Positions 10,960 to 18,088 of a stretch of 64,000 nucleotides of DNA are shown piece by piece. The notes below the pieces were generated by a model. That model was not told where the DNA came from. It saw only the letters and a program-made list of their open reading frames with translations, and searched no databases. Both the position numbers and the translations under genes were made by a program. The stretch is from positions 4,712,001-4,776,000 of the forward strand of contig NZ_CP036426.1 in assembly GCF_007752535.1 (NCBI RefSeq), given 5' to 3'. The first letter of the stretch is position 1. Each line of letters opens with the position of its first letter. The DNA comes from Tautonia plasticadhaerens. Lineage in GTDB: Bacteria > Planctomycetota > Planctomycetia > Isosphaerales > Isosphaeraceae.

Positions 10960-12252
10960 ATGGCTCGAACGACGGACGGGCGGGGCAGGGGGGGCGCGAC
11001 GGCCTCCTACGCCGGGGCCCTGGTGATGCTGGTGCTGGCCCTGGCGTTCCCGGTCGGCTTGATGGTCTTCAACCCGACCTTGATGTTCGAACGCGGCTGG
11101 CACCAGTACGCCGGCACGGCCATCTACGGCTGGGCCGTGCTGATGCTGTTCCGGGAGTGGGCCCGCCTCCGGGGGGACGAGCGGGCCTTCGACGAGGCCC
11201 CGGGCCTGCTGGACCGGGTCGCCGGGGGCGAGCCGATCGACCCGGGCGACCGCCGGCTGCTGGCGAGCCGGCTCCGCCAGCTCGACGGCCACGCCCGGGG
11301 GGAGGCGGCGCCGACGGTCGGCCAGCTCATGGAGCTGAACCGGGAGGTCTCGGGCCTGGACCAGGAGCGGACGGCCGGGCGGTTCACCCTGACCAAGTAC
11401 ATCCTCTACCTGCTGCCGGTGATCGGCTTCATCGGCACGGTGGAGGGGATCAGCCACGCGCTGGGGAACATCAGCGTGGTCCTGCCGATGGTCAAGGAGC
11501 TGGACGGGTTCCTCAGCAACCTGACCGGCGTGACCTCGGCGCTCCAGGTGGCCTTCGACAGCACCCTGCTCGCCCTGTTCCTGAGCGCGGCGTTGATGTT
11601 CGCGCAGACGATCGTCTATCGGCTGGCGGAGGACCACCTGGCCCGGGTCGACGCCTGGGTGGTGGAGCACGTCCTGCCCCGTCTCGGCCGTCCCGAGGGG
11701 CCGGCCGAGGCGCTGGCCCCGCACCTGGAGCGGCTGGGAGACCAGTTGATCAGGGCCCTGACCGAACGGCTCGGCGACGGCTTCGGGCCGTCGGTCGACC
11801 GCTTCTCGGCGGCGATCGACCCGCTCCCCAGGGCGCTGGACGACCTGCGGAGGGGGGCCGAGGCGATCGGCCGGGTCGGCGAGGATCTGGGGGCCGTCGG
11901 CGAGGCGAACGAGGCGATCCGCCGGGTGCTGTCGAGCCTGGCCCGGATCGAGGCGACGCTGGCCGAGCCGCCGCGGCTGGAGGACCAGATCGAGCCGATC
12001 CGCCGCGGCCTGGACCGCACCACGCTGGCGGTCGAGTCGCTGGCCGAGCAGTGGGCCTCGGCCTTCGAGCGCTCCAGCCGGTCGACCCAGGAGCAGCTGG
12101 CCCGGACGATGGCGAGCCTGAAGGACGCGATCGACCTGCTGAACGTGAGCATGGAGCAGGGCAACGCGTTGTACCGCAACATCGTCCGCAAGATGTTCGA
12201 CGACCGGGCGGCCTCGGGCGGCCTCGGCCCGGACGCCTCGAAGGCGGCCTGA
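10960..12252 (+). CDS. MotA/TolQ/ExbB proton channel-like protein
   Basis: Protein of 430 aa. GAGCAGGAGG precedes the ATG by 9 bases. Hydrophobic segments are at about 16-40, 50-62, 147-165 and 205-222. The third contains YLLPVIGFIGTVEGISHALG, the conserved GxxGTVxG helix of the MotA/TolQ/ExbB family, and VTSALQVAFDSTLLALFLS matches the last conserved helix. Family members form a pentameric proton channel in the inner membrane that powers a partner (MotB, TolR, ExbD). The C-terminal 200 residues form a long helical, probably coiled-coil cytoplasmic tail. The adjacent downstream membrane protein is the natural candidate partner. Which Mot/Tol/Exb class it belongs to is not clear. Confidence 0.82.
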   Translation: MARTTDGRGRGGATASYAGALVMLVLALAFPVGLMVFNPTLMFERGWHQYAGTAIYGWAVLMLFREWARLRGDERAFDEAPGLLDRVAGGEPIDPGDRRLLASRLRQLDGHARGEAAPTVGQLMELNREVSGLDQERTAGRFTLTKYILYLLPVIGFIGTVEGISHALGNISVVLPMVKELDGFLSNLTGVTSALQVAFDSTLLALFLSAALMFAQTIVYRLAEDHLARVDAWVVEHVLPRLGRPEGPAEALAPHLERLGDQLIRALTERLGDGFGPSVDRFSAAIDPLPRALDDLRRGAEAIGRVGEDLGAVGEANEAIRRVLSSLARIEATLAEPPRLEDQIEPIRRGLDRTTLAVESLAEQWASAFERSSRSTQEQLARTMASLKDAIDLLNVSMEQGNALYRNIVRKMFDDRAASGGLGPDASKAA

Positions 12253-12337
12253 GCGGCGTGTTCGGATCCCCGGGGGCCGGTCGGCGCCGAGGAGGCCCGG
12301 CCGGCCCGTCTCGCGAAGGGTAGCAGGAGGATCGGCC

Positions 12338-13162
12338 ATGCGTCGAGGACGTCGGGGGGGTCACGGGGTCCTGGAGTTCGGCGGGTCGGGGGAGGACTCG
12401 TTCGTGGCGGTGGTAGTCACGAAGCTGACCGGGGCGTTGCTGTTCATCCTGCTGCTGTCGATGGTGATCATGGCCCTGATCCCCCGGGCCGTCGACCCGT
12501 CGGCCCCGGGTGCGGTCGAGGCGGGGCCGCTGGAGATCGTCACCCCGGGTCGGCTGCCCGAGGCGATCGCGGGGAGGCCCTACGAGCTGGCGATGGCGAC
12601 CTCGGGGGCGTCGGGGCCGCTCCGGTGGGGGCTCGAGGGGGAACTGCCCGAGGGCCTGGAGTTCGACCCGGGCCTCGGGCTGATCCGGGGGACGCCCGAG
12701 GCCGGCTCGCCGGGCCCGCTGGCGCTGACGGTCCGGGTCGGCGACGGCAGGAGGACCGAGGCGAAGCGGCTCTCCCTGGTGGTCTACCGGCCGGACGGCC
12801 CGCTGACGGTCCCCTCGCCGCTGGAGGCGGCGTTGCACCTGCCCCGGGTCCCCTGGCAAGCCTGGGGGGAGCTGGGATTCGGGTTCCTGGTGCTGGTGCT
12901 CGTCCACCTGGTGGCGATGAACGGCGTGGGGGCGATGGAGCGGCGATCGGCGGCGCTCGAAGAGGCCCGGGGGCGGGGCGCCGGGCGGCCCGGCAGGAGA
13001 TTTGCTCTCTATCGGGCGAGCCTCCGGGTGGCGACCGCGACGGCCGTCGCGGTGCTGGCCGGCTGGCTCTGGCTGCACCGGGACGGGCCGAACGGGGGCC
13101 CGGCGGGGGCGGACGCCGCGGTTGCATCGGCAGGCGATGATCGGACCCATGTGTCCCGATGA
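12338..13162 (+). CDS. Membrane protein with Ig-like (He_PIG) domain, putative partner of the proton channel
   Basis: Protein of 274 aa, 85 bases downstream of the MotA/TolQ-like gene, with AGCAGGAGG before the ATG. One hydrophobic helix (22-48) is followed by a domain of about 70-145 that matches a putative Ig (He_PIG) fold: PEAIAGRPYELAM, PEGLEFDPGLGLIRGTP, LALTVRVGDG. Two more hydrophobic segments follow (about 176-197 and 228-246). ExbD/TolR/MotB partners have a single N-terminal helix and a periplasmic domain; this protein shares the helix but not the usual domain. Partnership is inferred from position only. Confidence 0.7.
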   Translation: MRRGRRGGHGVLEFGGSGEDSFVAVVVTKLTGALLFILLLSMVIMALIPRAVDPSAPGAVEAGPLEIVTPGRLPEAIAGRPYELAMATSGASGPLRWGLEGELPEGLEFDPGLGLIRGTPEAGSPGPLALTVRVGDGRRTEAKRLSLVVYRPDGPLTVPSPLEAALHLPRVPWQAWGELGFGFLVLVLVHLVAMNGVGAMERRSAALEEARGRGAGRPGRRFALYRASLRVATATAVAVLAGWLWLHRDGPNGGPAGADAAVASAGDDRTHVSR

Positions 13163-13338: not shown

Positions 13339-14532
13339 ATGACTCGCATCACGTTTCGCGCCGCCCTGGTCGCGGCGGGACTGGCCTCGGGGCTGCTGGC
13401 GCTCGCGCCGAGCGCCTCGGCCCAGGTGCGTCGCAACATCGGCGGCACCGTCAAGACCGAGCCCGCCGAGGAGACCCCGGAGACTCCCCAGGAGGGGGAG
13501 GCCCCCGACGCGGAGCCGGCCGAGGGCGAGGAGGGCGAGGAGGGCGAGGATCGTCCCGAGCGTGAGGTCGACCCGGAGGTGATCGCCCGGATCGTCGAGA
13601 TGCGCGGGCCGATGTGGCTGCTGGAGCAGGAGCCCGTCCGCGTGGAGCTGAAGATCTCCGACGCCCAGCTCGAACGGCTCAAGCAGGTCGACGAGCGGAT
13701 GGAGGAGGTCCGCGATGAATCTCGGGACCGCATGCGGGAGCAGATGCGACAGCAATTCGGCGACCAGGGAGGGCGGGGCGGCCGGGGCGGCGGCGGCAAC
13801 CCCGCCCAGGGTCGGGGCCCCGGCGGATTCCCCGGCGGCCCCGGCGGATTCCCCGGCGGATTCCCGGGAGGCCCCGGCGGATTCCCGGGAGGCCCCGGCG
13901 GCGGGTTCCCCGGCGGCGACGCCTTCCGGACCATGATGACCCAGATGCGGCAGCAGTCCGACCAGGCGCTGGCCGCCGTGCTCAGCCCGGGACAGCTCAA
14001 GCGGTTCAAGCAGATCATGCTCCAGGCCAAGGGCCCGATGGTCGTGACCGAGGACGAGATGCAGCTCGCCCTCGGCCTGTTGCCGGTCCAGCGCGAGCAG
14101 ATCAAGATGGTCGAGCAGGAGATGGAGATGAAGCAGCAGCAGGCGAGCACCGTCCGCCGAGAGCTCTTCACCGCCGCCTTCCAGCGCAATCGGGAGCAGC
14201 AAGGCCAGCAGGAACAGCAGGGGCAGGGCGGCGACCGGGATTCCGACGGCCGGGGCGGCGACGACGAACGGCGGGGCCGCTTCCAGATGGACCCCGAGAC
14301 CCAGGCCAAGGTCGAGCAGCTCCAGGCCCAGGGCGAGAGCTACGAGAAGGAAGCCCTCTCCAAGATCGGCAAGGTCCTCAATCGCTCCCAGATCAACAAG
14401 TACAAGGAAATGCTGGGCAAGCCCTTCGACTTCTCGGCGATCGACATGGGCAACGCCGGTCGCGGCTTCGGCGGCTTCGGCGGCGGCCGGGGCGGTGGCG
14501 ACGACGACGGCGGCCGACGCCGGGGTGGCTGA
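13339..14532 (+). CDS. Secreted Gly/Pro-rich, coiled-coil protein (LTxxQ-like)
   Basis: Protein of 397 aa. Signal peptide MTRITFRAALVAAGLASGLL ending at SASA-Q (cleavage near residue 28). Then come an acidic Glu/Pro linker (35-75), a helical segment with VELKISDAQLERLKQV, a Gly/Pro/Phe repeat block (GGFPGGPGG type, about 145-195), and further helical Gln/Glu-rich segments with LSPGQLKRFKQIMLQ. The xSxxQLxRLxQ pattern resembles Spy/CpxP-type LTxxQ motifs of periplasmic proteins, but no function is established. The ATG at 13339 was chosen because it opens the signal peptide and follows GGAGGACATCCGGG. A strong hairpin follows the gene. Confidence 0.75.
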   Translation: MTRITFRAALVAAGLASGLLALAPSASAQVRRNIGGTVKTEPAEETPETPQEGEAPDAEPAEGEEGEEGEDRPEREVDPEVIARIVEMRGPMWLLEQEPVRVELKISDAQLERLKQVDERMEEVRDESRDRMREQMRQQFGDQGGRGGRGGGGNPAQGRGPGGFPGGPGGFPGGFPGGPGGFPGGPGGGFPGGDAFRTMMTQMRQQSDQALAAVLSPGQLKRFKQIMLQAKGPMVVTEDEMQLALGLLPVQREQIKMVEQEMEMKQQQASTVRRELFTAAFQRNREQQGQQEQQGQGGDRDSDGRGGDDERRGRFQMDPETQAKVEQLQAQGESYEKEALSKIGKVLNRSQINKYKEMLGKPFDFSAIDMGNAGRGFGGFGGGRGGGDDDGGRRRGG

Positions 14533-14584: not shown

Positions 14585-14638
14585 GACGACGCCGGTGCCG
14601 GGGGGCCGACTTGCTCGCCCCCCGGCACCGGCGTCGTC
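14585..14638. terminator. Strong hairpin, probable terminator
   Basis: Perfect 22-bp stem (14585-14606 with 14617-14638) and 10-base loop, 52 bases after the secreted-protein gene. No T-run follows in either direction. Confidence 0.65.
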
Positions 14639-14806: not shown

Positions 14807-15427
14807 ATGTGGACCGGAATGATCGCGCTGACGTGCTGGGCGGGAGCGGCCCTGCCGGGCCCGGGCGACGCCCCCGAAGGCCCGCCCTGGCGGCTGCCCG
14901 ACGAGGCGCTCGGGGCGAGGATGGCGCCGATCCTGCTGCTGAGCCGGCCGGACGTCCAGCACGAGTTGCAGATGGGGGACGAGCAGGTCGCCTCGGGCCG
15001 GGGGGCGATCGTCGAGCTGTTCGCCAGGGCCGCCTCGCTCCGGGGCCGTTCGGGGGCCGACGCGGTGGCCTCCCGGAGAGAAGTCGACGATTCGGCCCGA
15101 CGATGGCTCGGCGAGAACCTGACTGCCGAGCAGCTCGGGCGTCTCGGCCAGATCGAGCTGCAATGGGAAGGGGCCGCCGCGCTGCTCAGCCGGCCGACGA
15201 TCGCCGCCAGCCTCGGCCTGACGGACGAGCAGCGTTCGAGGCTCTCCGAGTCCCTCTCGCGCCCGCCCGCCCCCGGCGAGGGGCCGGTCGACGCCCATCG
15301 CCGACGCCACCGGGACGCTGCCTCGATCCTGACCGAGGACCAGCGGCTCCGCTGGCTCGCGATGCTCGGCCCGCCCTTCGAGCCCGGCGCCGCCCGGGCG
15401 GCCGAGGCCGTCGCCTCCGGGGGCTGA
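14807..15427 (+). CDS. Small secreted or membrane-anchored protein with LTxxQ-like motifs
   Basis: Protein of 206 aa starting MWTGMIALTCWAGAALPGPG, a short signal-like hydrophobic stretch preceded by GGAAGGAG. The body is helical with repeated motifs: LTAEQLGRLGQIELQWEG, LTDEQRSRLSESLS and LTEDQRLRWLAMLG, that is LTxxQ repeats as in Spy/CpxP relatives and as in the preceding secreted protein. The two may be distant relatives doing similar periplasmic work. Function unknown. It ends 48 bases from the convergent TPR gene. Confidence 0.7.
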   Translation: MWTGMIALTCWAGAALPGPGDAPEGPPWRLPDEALGARMAPILLLSRPDVQHELQMGDEQVASGRGAIVELFARAASLRGRSGADAVASRREVDDSARRWLGENLTAEQLGRLGQIELQWEGAAALLSRPTIAASLGLTDEQRSRLSESLSRPPAPGEGPVDAHRRRHRDAASILTEDQRLRWLAMLGPPFEPGAARAAEAVASGG

Positions 15428-16268: not shown

Positions 16269-17453
16269 TCAGCGAGGGGGCCTGATATTCAGGCCGCCGC
16301 GCTGGTCGGGGGGGGCGAGCATCTGCTCCCGGCTGGCGTCCTCCAGGGCGGTGAGCCGGCGTTCGGTCTCGATCAGGTCGGGGATGTCGAGGCCGTCGGC
16401 CGAGCCGAGGGCGAGCGCCTCGCCCCGCAGGGCGATCCCGTCCCGGTTGTGCAGGCCGTCGAGCCAGCGCTCGGGGATGGCGGAGGACCCGGACTGGGCG
16501 CCGATCAGGGCGCCGAGGATGGCCCCGGCGGAGTCGGCATCGCCGCCGAGGTTGACCACGTCGATGAGGGCCTCCTCGAACGACTCGGTCGTCAGCAGCA
16601 GGTAGAAGCAGGTCGGGATGCAGGCGGGCGGGAAGCCCATCGTCGGTCGCTTGCAGGAGGGGCGGGCGCCGTGCGCATTTGCCTCCTCGACCAGGGCGTG
16701 CAACGCATCGGGCCGGGGGAGGTCCAGCAGGGCCTCGACGTGGGCGATGGCCCGGGAGAGGCCCCGTCCGTGCTCGCCGATCGAGGCGACGACCCCGCCA
16801 TGCTCCTCGGCGATCCGGCGCTCGGCGGCGGCCACGTCCCCCGCGACCCGGAACAGCAGGCTCGGCGACCTCGATTCGCCGCAGAGCAGGCGGCGGACTC
16901 CCGAGGCGACGGCGACGGCACCGGCCAGGCTCCGGACGTCCCGGTGGGTCATCAGGCTGGCGGCCATGACGGCATCGAACAGGCCGTCCGGGTCGTCCCG
17001 GAAGGGGATCGCCACGGGGGCGATCCGCATGGCGGCGCCGATGCCGGCCGAATCCTGCCCGCACTCCAGCGGGGGCCGCCCCCGATCCAGCCCGTCGAGG
17101 ACCTGGCGGAAGCTCCGGCCGACGCCCCGATGCGCGCCGGCGTGGCCGTTCCGGGGTGTGGCCAGGGCGAGATAGGTGGCCGCCAGGCGGTCGGGGACGA
17201 CCACGCCCTCGGCCAGGAGCACGTCGGCCAGGGCGAGGGCCTGCTGGGTGTCGTCGGTATAGAGGCCCGGCAGCCGCCAGCGATAGGGCTTGCGACGCCA
17301 GGCCCGGGCGCCATCGACGTAATCGACGACCGTGCCGTAATGGGCCCGGATCTGCTGGGGGCTGAGCCCCTCGAGCGGGGCCCCCAGGGCGTCGCCGACG
17401 GCCAGGCCGAGCAGGGTCCCTCGGGCCCGGTCGAGGAGGGTCGACAGCGGCAT
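16269..17453 (-). CDS. ADP-ribosylglycohydrolase family protein
   Basis: Protein of 394 aa. It has the DraG/ARH signature residues: GTLLGLAVGDALGAPLEGLS near the N-terminus, LYTDDTQQALAL (the TDDT metal site, about 65-70), and VNLGGDADSAGAILGALIGA (the GGDADS metal site, near 305-312). These bind two Mg ions, and the family removes ADP-ribose from modified proteins or small molecules. The start at 17453 follows AAGGAG. Whether the substrate is a protein (as in DraG) or a metabolite cannot be told; no dinitrogenase reductase system is nearby. Confidence 0.88.
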   Translation of the reverse strand: MPLSTLLDRARGTLLGLAVGDALGAPLEGLSPQQIRAHYGTVVDYVDGARAWRRKPYRWRLPGLYTDDTQQALALADVLLAEGVVVPDRLAATYLALATPRNGHAGAHRGVGRSFRQVLDGLDRGRPPLECGQDSAGIGAAMRIAPVAIPFRDDPDGLFDAVMAASLMTHRDVRSLAGAVAVASGVRRLLCGESRSPSLLFRVAGDVAAAERRIAEEHGGVVASIGEHGRGLSRAIAHVEALLDLPRPDALHALVEEANAHGARPSCKRPTMGFPPACIPTCFYLLLTTESFEEALIDVVNLGGDADSAGAILGALIGAQSGSSAIPERWLDGLHNRDGIALRGEALALGSADGLDIPDLIETERRLTALEDASREQMLAPPDQRGGLNIRPPR

Positions 17454-18088
17454 GCGGATTGGCTCCTTGCGATCCCCCGGGGTCGATGGGCCCGGGCTCG
17501 AATCGGCGTCGAACTTAACGGGTCGGCCCTCGGGGGCCAACGGGAGTTCTCCGGAGTCGGCGGCCGATCGGGCCGACTCCCGGCGGCCCCGACGGCTCGG
17601 AGGGCGGCCCGGATCGGCGCCGGGGCGACCTGCTCGATCTGCGTCAGACATGGCGTGCCTCGCGATCGCTGCCCGCGCCGCGTGGCGTGTTGTCAACCAT
17701 CGGCCGGTGCCGAGTGCGGCGGTGAGCCCCGCTCCCGGCGATCCCCGGGGCGGACCTCCCGCCCTGTCGCGACCGATGAGACCCGACCGGCCGGGGCGAC
17801 CGGACCGGGCCCGGTGCGTGTCCCCGGCCCTCGACCGATGGCTGTCGGACGTCGATCAACACGGACGTTCCCCCCTCGCCGAGGGCCCCGGGCCCTCGGC
17901 GCGTTTGCTCGTGCCCCCCGACCGCGGTCCGATCGCCGTCGATCGTGTCGGCCCGGGGGGCGGGGACCGCCCCCCCGATCGGGCCCGGGCCCGATCCGAT
18001 CGCCGACGCTCCTCGTTCGACCGTGAACCGCGGGCATCCCCGACACAGGAGCCGACCCGTCCTCGACGCGATCGGCCCGGCCCGGGGA
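17454..18088. other. Intergenic region without recognisable gene
   Basis: About 635 bases between two minus-strand genes. Open frames are present on both strands but consist of Arg/Gly/Pro/Ser-rich translations typical of GC-rich non-coding DNA. Nothing else seen. Confidence 0.5.

Follow-up and report, generated by a model that had tools for sequence, protein, structure and literature searches.

An Isosphaeraceae-specific gene pair of a TolQ/ExbB-type channel and an Ig-domain membrane protein: a likely variant of the 5:2 motor kind

Models of the motors closest to the locus described here build on a protonatable aspartate of the axle, as in ExbD and ZorB. The same is described for MotB, TolR and AglQ/S in the excerpt of PMC9389320 considered here, which also reports an 18-nm periplasmic shaft for GldM. 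According to the excerpt of PMC8986121, E49 of GldL is an essential and strictly conserved residue, and gliding is not impaired by the GldM E31A exchange. In TolQ-like motors with a vWA partner, as presented in part of PMC12204202, the vWA protein supplies the transpore helix and the aspartate is kept. A search of the literature returned no paper joining Isosphaeraceae with ExbD, or Singulisphaera with TolQ.

In our work presented here we analyze two adjacent genes in the 9.4-Mb genome of Tautonia plasticadhaerens. They are located in a stretch of 64,000 nucleotides (contig NZ_CP036426.1, positions 4,712,001 to 4,776,000), hereafter the window, to which coordinates refer unless genome positions are given. 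The pair joins a channel of the TolQ/ExbB family and fold to a partner that is kept together with it in relatives; the pore helices and the axle helix are nearly frozen, and the axle aspartate is absent. In our view the pair is a true variant, particular to this lineage, of motors of the 5:2 kind, in which the axle has been replaced.

The channel and its Ig-domain partner

The channel gene (10960..12252, plus strand; ATG at 10960, stop at 12252) is preceded by AGGAGG. Its 430-aa product, of the TolQ/ExbB/MotA type, is predicted to span the membrane with four helices and has a long helical tail on the cytoplasmic side. The protein matches Pfam MotA_ExbB (PF01618) with 28.2 bits, above the cut-off of 22.9, and contains the motif GFIGTVEG. 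In the AF2 model (mean pLDDT 70) helices are found at residues 13-37, 47-88, 143-177 and 181-242, with further helices up to residue 418; the part after residue 242 is a helical tail modelled with low confidence (pLDDT about 47-72). The initial annotation had proposed a MotA/TolQ-like channel with a GxxGTVxG helix and a very long helical tail, and motif, Pfam score and model all agree with it.

When aligned to solved structures, the channel model matched TolQ (8vlw_B) with a VIA Z of 13.3 and an rmsd of 3.5 over 202 residues. The best 18 rows of this alignment consist of TolQ or ExbB only (Z 11.6-13.3), with PomA, ZorA and MotA in lower rows. As the first unrelated helical protein is met at row 19 (Z 11.6) and Foldseek gave no E-value better than 0.094, the fold assignment leans on the family order of the rows together with the Pfam match. 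When solved structures were searched with a channel profile, coiled coils dominated the result; the porL/gldL chain 7sat_C was matched at E 0.028, but over no part other than the tail, and single-sequence PDB searches gave weak matches only.

The two pore helices and the tail, all on the plus strand, follow one another in the gene. TM3 (residues 143-172; 11386..11475) contains GFIGT160-V-E162-G, with the codons of Thr160 at 11437-11439 and of Glu162 at 11443-11445. TM4 (residues 184-215; 11509..11604) contains AFD200-S-T202, with Asp200 at 11557-11559 and Thr202 at 11563-11565, and the helical tail comprises residues 216-418 (11605..12213). Threonines of four ExbB proteins of the same genome align with Thr160 and Thr202, and those of the other planctomycete channels shown in the alignment are mostly in register with them; we take both to be the known pore threonines of TolQ/ExbB channels. 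By Pfam score, fold and these two threonines, the channel belongs to the MotA/TolQ/ExbB family. A fifth ExbB-like gene (genome positions 7,604,958-7,605,299, locus L005), not among the four, has no ExbD match nearby and shows a gap at the second pore motif in the alignment.

The partner gene (12338..13162, plus strand; ATG at 12338, stop at 13162) begins after a spacing of 85 bp, and both genes have a good ribosome-binding site, again AGGAGG for the partner. It encodes 274 aa with an N-terminal helix, an Ig domain and two more helices. The protein matches Pfam He_PIG with 27.1 bits (cut-off 24). In its model (mean pLDDT 80), a helix at residues 18-51 precedes an Ig sandwich that spans roughly 63-150, with pLDDT values of 90-98 for residues 61-150, and two more helices follow at 173-211 and 219-247; Foldseek returned Ig-like, cadherin-like and other beta-sandwich domains for the model. 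Helix 1 (12389..12490), which contains the codon of Lys29 (12422-12424), is the proposed pore-inserted axle helix. It is followed by the Ig domain (residues 63-150; 12524..12787) and by helices 2 and 3 (12854..13078), the proposed membrane anchors; all these features lie on the plus strand. Pfam and model thus agree on the He_PIG Ig domain and the two extra helices described initially.

No ExbD match adjoins the channel, in accordance with the earlier view of an Ig-domain membrane protein standing in place of ExbD/TolR/MotB. An ExbD-like nature of the first helix had also been proposed, and of this the position alone stands, since the partner has no ExbD match in Pfam, PADLOC, NCBIfam or PHROGs; ExbD, TolR, MotB or OmpA-type periplasmic domains were likewise absent from it in Pfam and NCBIfam at E 1 or below. 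As to a canonical ExbD/TolR partner encoded elsewhere, the seven ExbD matches found in the genome all adjoin the four other ExbB genes. No free one was found, but a channel-less pair of another partner type is present elsewhere in the genome, as described below.

The partner has an Arg-rich N-terminus and an Arg-rich loop between helices 2 and 3, which suggests an N-inside orientation with a periplasmic Ig domain. In the model, short linkers would then fasten this domain to the inner membrane at either end. The periplasmic parts of MotB, TolR and ExbD are not known to be tethered at both ends in this way.

Conservation of the pair and of its charges

Both genes were found in 36 of the 37 Isosphaeraceae genomes searched; the exception, G017, has neither the channel nor a full-length partner. 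Judged by match coordinates, 28 of these 36 genomes have the two genes next to each other in the same orientation, no more than 431 bp apart, which bears out the expectation that relatives keep the pair together; in G008, G010, G013, G014, G025, G027, G028 and G034 they are apart or on different contigs. Among 22 other genomes of the class, 21 gave distant channel matches only and one gave none, and the single partner match is an Ig stretch. In a sample of 297 class genomes, a full-length partner is present in 43 of 45 family genomes (exceptions G017 and G137), while the best partner E-value in the remaining 252 was 1.5e-12, those among the matches listed being Ig stretches. A collection of named sequences, with partner matches that include Tautonia sociabilis, Singulisphaera, Paludisphaera, Aquisphaera and metagenome bins, contained 33 loci with the partner, all with K29. 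Since Tautonia and Singulisphaera belong to the Isosphaeraceae (class Planctomycetia), the family searched is taken to be this one. The channel is on the same stretch in 29 of them, with E162 in every case (29/29), and adjacent in 24. Three contigs titled Candidatus Kuenenia (L140, L141 and L146) carry the Isosphaeraceae partner gene and are probably mislabelled metagenome bins. The pair is genuine, conserved and specific to the Isosphaeraceae.

This distribution (36/37 and 43/45 family genomes) is unlike that of a sporadic defence island and argues against a Zorya-like anti-phage system. A long-tailed MotA-like channel with a membrane partner would be in line with such a system, and weak ZorA matches were obtained (PADLOC E 0.075; NCBIfam 15.6 bits against a cut-off of 100). 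However, the partner has no PADLOC match, its domain is of the Ig type, and a scan of five neighbours for defence genes gave a TPR match only. We therefore consider this explanation highly improbable.

Downstream of the pair, gene 3 (13339..14532, plus strand) encodes a Gly-rich helical protein and gene 4 (14807..15427, plus strand) a protein with LTxEQ-like motifs (Pfam LTXXQ 12.9 bits, under the cut-off of 24.3), each with a signal-peptide-like start as judged by eye. Neither matches a Pfam family at cut-off. Homologues of gene 3 were found in at least 16 and of gene 4 in at least 15 of 24 loci, counts that are lower bounds because the scripted gene calls came from a crude GC-frame picker. 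Where channel and partner are separated, gene 3 adjoins the partner and not the channel in six of the seven such loci fetched (L091, L092, L093, L094, L096 and L099); at the seventh, L095, it was not seen. These linked genes do no more than hint at an envelope-linked role. Between genes 3 and 4, at 14585-14638, lies a GC-rich inverted repeat, perhaps a terminator, whose 22-bp arms match perfectly around a loop of 10 bases. Further downstream, on the minus strand (16269-17696), an ADP-ribosylglycohydrolase-like protein is encoded (NCBIfam DRAG 123 bits, below cut-off), relatives of which occur around the pair in at least 10 of 24 loci.

Identities were computed for 35 orthologue pairs, from the 36 genomes with both genes, with G034 left out. 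Partner residues 17-48 show a mean pairwise identity of 96%. Of the other partner regions, the N-terminal tail has 72%, helix 2 (residues 173-197) 59%, the Ig domain 50% and helix 3 (residues 222-246) 42%; the linkers are at 34-36% and the cytoplasmic loop is lowest at 27%. In the channel, TM3 and TM4 reach 92% and 87%, respectively, the tail end (residues 391-411) is well conserved at 77%, and values elsewhere are 44-61%. Over 26 codons of helix 1, counted from S21, sequences differ on average in 12.4 codons but in only 0.69 residues. As the codons differ and the residues do not, the freeze of helix 1 is due to selection on the protein and not to recent copying. Mainly because its conservation is matched by the two pore helices of the channel alone, we place helix 1 in the pore.

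Acidic residues are absent from partner residues 22-48 in all 35 aligned sequences, and a conserved aspartate in the first helix, sought as a possible proton carrier in the initial annotation, was thus not found (0/35). D20 is invariant but lies 29 residues ahead of P49, too early for MotB D32, and was rejected as the motor aspartate; the spacing from P49 was judged against MotB (D32) and ExbD sequences. Invariant in all 35 pairs are K29 of the partner and T160, E162, D200 and T202 of the channel. Glu does not occur at the variable position of GTVxG in any of 84 other channels read (L219 was unread and left out), where the residue is I in 39, L in 19, M in 12, V in 6, S in 2, T in 2 and R, Q, W or Y in one each.

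We consider it probable that the channel and the Ig protein form one inner-membrane complex, a rotary motor of the 5:2 type with helix 1 as its axle, and regard the motor reading of the pair as likely. Five copies of the 430-aa channel would make up the wheel, and the first helix of the Ig protein would be inserted in the wheel pore as the axle, probably as a dimer. The long cytoplasmic tail of the channel may carry output or input on the inside, and the Ig domain together with helices 2 and 3 would hold the axle from the periplasmic side and the surrounding membrane. A 5:2 stoichiometry, ion flow and rotation are what we infer for the pair, and the same applies to the attributes proton-powered and coupling to the envelope in the initial description.

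A counter-point is the lack of an acid in the axle helix at the depth where one is usual; the complex might therefore not conduct. The channel could then be a pentamer with a sealed central helix, a non-conducting scaffold or sensor in which the Ig domain senses the periplasm and signals via the cytoplasmic tail. The lack of an axle-core acid in all 35 sequences and the short periplasmic part, tethered at both ends in the model, would be in line with this, and the signal-like starts of the linked proteins, together with the LTxEQ-like motifs that one of them has at a score under the cut-off, would fit envelope sensing. Invariant pore threonines and two intramembrane acids would, however, be superfluous in a dead pore, and we hold this alternative to be unlikely.

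Related channels and partner genes in the Planctomycetia

Outside the Isosphaeraceae, related channels of the class are mostly followed by single-helix partners, here termed P1 and P2, which speaks for the motor reading of the pair. Searched with a profile of 18 such channels, 145 of 148 class genomes yielded matches with E-values of 1e-20 or lower; some of the channels matched lack a long tail. For 77 loci fetched from outside the family (17 + 60), a channel ORF was obtained in 74 and none in three; 73 of these ORFs comprise at least 390 aa, 71 contain AF[DEN]xT and none of the 74 contains GTVEG. P1 has a starting helix such as SLFPFLAVLICTMGALIFLLVV and P2 one such as DSFLDIVANIVGILIILIVV. 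By loose criteria both are present in 53 of the 74 loci, P1 only in 10, P2 only in 6 and neither in 5, four of the latter being stretches cut by contig ends, and three P2 assignments are wrong (L082, a misfiled P1; L175 and L206, unrelated genes).

In P1, no acid was found within 11 residues after FPF[LM] (0/63). By a looser definition the Asp motif is present in 55 of the 59 rows filed as P2; the four rows without it are the three misassigned ones and L087, which does have LD. The idea that in AFDTT channels generally the acid has moved from the axle to the wheel was consequently dropped, as P2 in other families keeps its aspartate. Two P2 and three P1 proteins were scanned and gave neither an ExbD-type family match nor an Ig match, with coiled-coil stretches in most of them. 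The sets at L074-L090 and L173-L232 come in two forms, one of which has a channel with an N-terminal zinc-ribbon-like part (below cut-off). At locus L159 (G046), a channel-like ORF of 1194 aa precedes the genes of two proteins whose helices are of the SFLDLLSCALGG type, another variant of the partner set.

In profile comparisons by HHalign, P2 matched P1 with a probability of 96%. The Isosphaeraceae axle helix aligns with P2, a further point for the motor, but the weakness of this match (47%) counts against it; the helix matched P1 with 29%, and no relation to ExbD was found (0.6%). The P2 aspartate was set against the ExbD aspartate at low probability (13%), and in the alignment of the Isosphaeraceae helix with the P2 profile it falls on A24 of the partner, with one inserted residue. 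In the channel tree the 35 Isosphaeraceae channels form one clade (100/98), separate from the P1/P2-linked channels; L159 is placed beside this clade on a branch of 3.7, a position treated as unreliable, and the bootstrap of the tree had not settled. The Isosphaeraceae channel may have had its axle swapped, or it may be a paralogue of greater age, the sister channel linked to P1/P2 having disappeared.

P1- and P2-like genes persist in the Isosphaeraceae apart from the channel. In the T. plasticadhaerens genome they form a two-gene operon without a channel nearby (2,688,894-2,691,913, locus L233), that is at 2.69 Mb as compared to 4.72 Mb for the channel, and this operon is kept in most Isosphaeraceae genomes. 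Of 45 family genomes, 41 have P2-like and 44 have P1-like genes, and none of the 20 stretches of 11-16 kb read, in which both genes are present, contains a channel. Their first helices lack the SLFPFL and DSFLD motifs, although L234 and L235 retain a remnant recognisable by eye. All 19 P1-like segments printed show, by eye, a Glu close to where the helix starts, and a script detected acids within the helix core that it picked in 11 of 19 P1-like and 8 of 20 P2-like proteins; the script skipped the P1 row of L242, where a late domain matched first, and its P2 pick in L234 is a non-membrane stretch. In view of the remnants, the P1-like Glu and the core acids, an initial assumption that axle-like features had been lost completely from these relatives was softened. 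A second P2-type Asp helix was not found in the T. plasticadhaerens genome at E 1 or below, which with a weak, short helix profile is not proof of absence. Among the 45 family genomes, this profile matched at E below 0.01 in G008 only and weakly (E 0.02-0.98) in 14 others; G008 has two adjacent P2-type helix matches near an extra channel match.

These relatives provide a second counter-point to the motor reading of the pair, as they could be the real axle. The Ig protein would then have an accessory role comparable to that of TonB or TolA in their motors, and the distant P1/P2-like pair would be the true axle of the channel. The wide retention of both genes fits this view, as does the position of P1/P2 after the channel in most loci of other families, and owing to the acids in the helix cores and the Glu at the P1-like helix start the relatives could still serve a motor. 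On the other hand, the SLFPFL and DSFLD motifs have gone from their helices, the frozen helix is that of the Ig protein, the gene of which adjoins the channel, and the Isosphaeraceae channels are a clade of their own apart from the P1/P2-linked ones. An accessory role of the Ig protein appears rather unlikely to us, if slightly less so than a non-conducting scaffold.

For a motor built from the channel and the Ig protein, the most likely ion relay would be one between wheel acids (Glu162, perhaps Asp200) and the axle Lys29, as for GldL in GldLM. Judged by position in the sequence, E162 is shifted towards the periplasm by two residues relative to the pore threonine, and K29 by four or five relative to the P2 Asp position; with both so displaced, the two residues could meet. 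As each is fixed in one clade, their co-occurrence represents a single evolutionary event and not covariation. We tentatively propose, as a possible rather than a probable scenario drawn from the sequence patterns, a charge-swapped motor of the 5:2 type in which the ion-carrying acid would sit on the five wheel subunits (Glu162, with Asp200), Lys29 would stand opposite on the Ig axle and the ancestral P1/P2 pair would persist without a channel.

Comparison with known motors

With TolQ-TolR and ExbB-ExbD the Isosphaeraceae pair shares the wheel fold, the pore threonines and an adjacent gene whose N-terminal helix should enter the pore. It differs in a partner that has neither the aspartate nor an ExbD/TolR match and instead brings an Ig domain and two extra helices, and in a wheel with Glu162 and a long tail. 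MotB, TolR and ZorB have a free peptidoglycan-binding domain, whereas the Ig domain of the Isosphaeraceae partner would be held at the membrane. A long cytoplasmic channel tail is also present in ZorA-ZorB, and the channel fold matches there with a Z of about 10, but the channel remains under the ZorA cut-offs, the partner has an Ig domain and the five scanned neighbours are without defence genes save for the TPR match. The TolQ-like motors with a vWA partner, as far as presented in part of PMC12204202, resemble the pair in that the replacement of TolR/ExbD itself provides the pore helix; they combine the aspartate with a vWA domain, whereas the Isosphaeraceae partner combines the lack of the aspartate with an Ig domain.

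The channel-P1-P2 sets of the Planctomycetia have in common with the pair the AFDTT-type pore motif, a mostly long-tailed channel and adjacent single-helix partners, but their P2 keeps the aspartate, and the scanned P1 and P2 proteins have no Ig domain and mostly a coiled coil. This class-wide set is a further uncharacterised motor candidate in planctomycetes.

GldL and GldM families were not among the Pfam or NCBIfam matches of the pair; the likeness to GldL-GldM lies in the placement of the acid. On the excerpt of PMC9389320, the 18-nm shaft of GldM contrasts with an Ig domain tethered at both ends. In both systems the acid is borne by the wheel rather than the axle; its essentiality is known for GldL E49 (excerpt of PMC8986121), and a like role would fit the sequence pattern of the Isosphaeraceae. 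A pair in which the wheel is kept, the axle aspartate dropped and a helix lysine and a wheel acid added would offer a natural test of which charges drive such motors, and would also indicate that an axle helix can sit on an unrelated scaffold. If true, the charge-swapped motor would mean that a member of the TolQ/ExbB lineage has converged on the solution seen in GldLM, and that an axle has been swapped between proteins.
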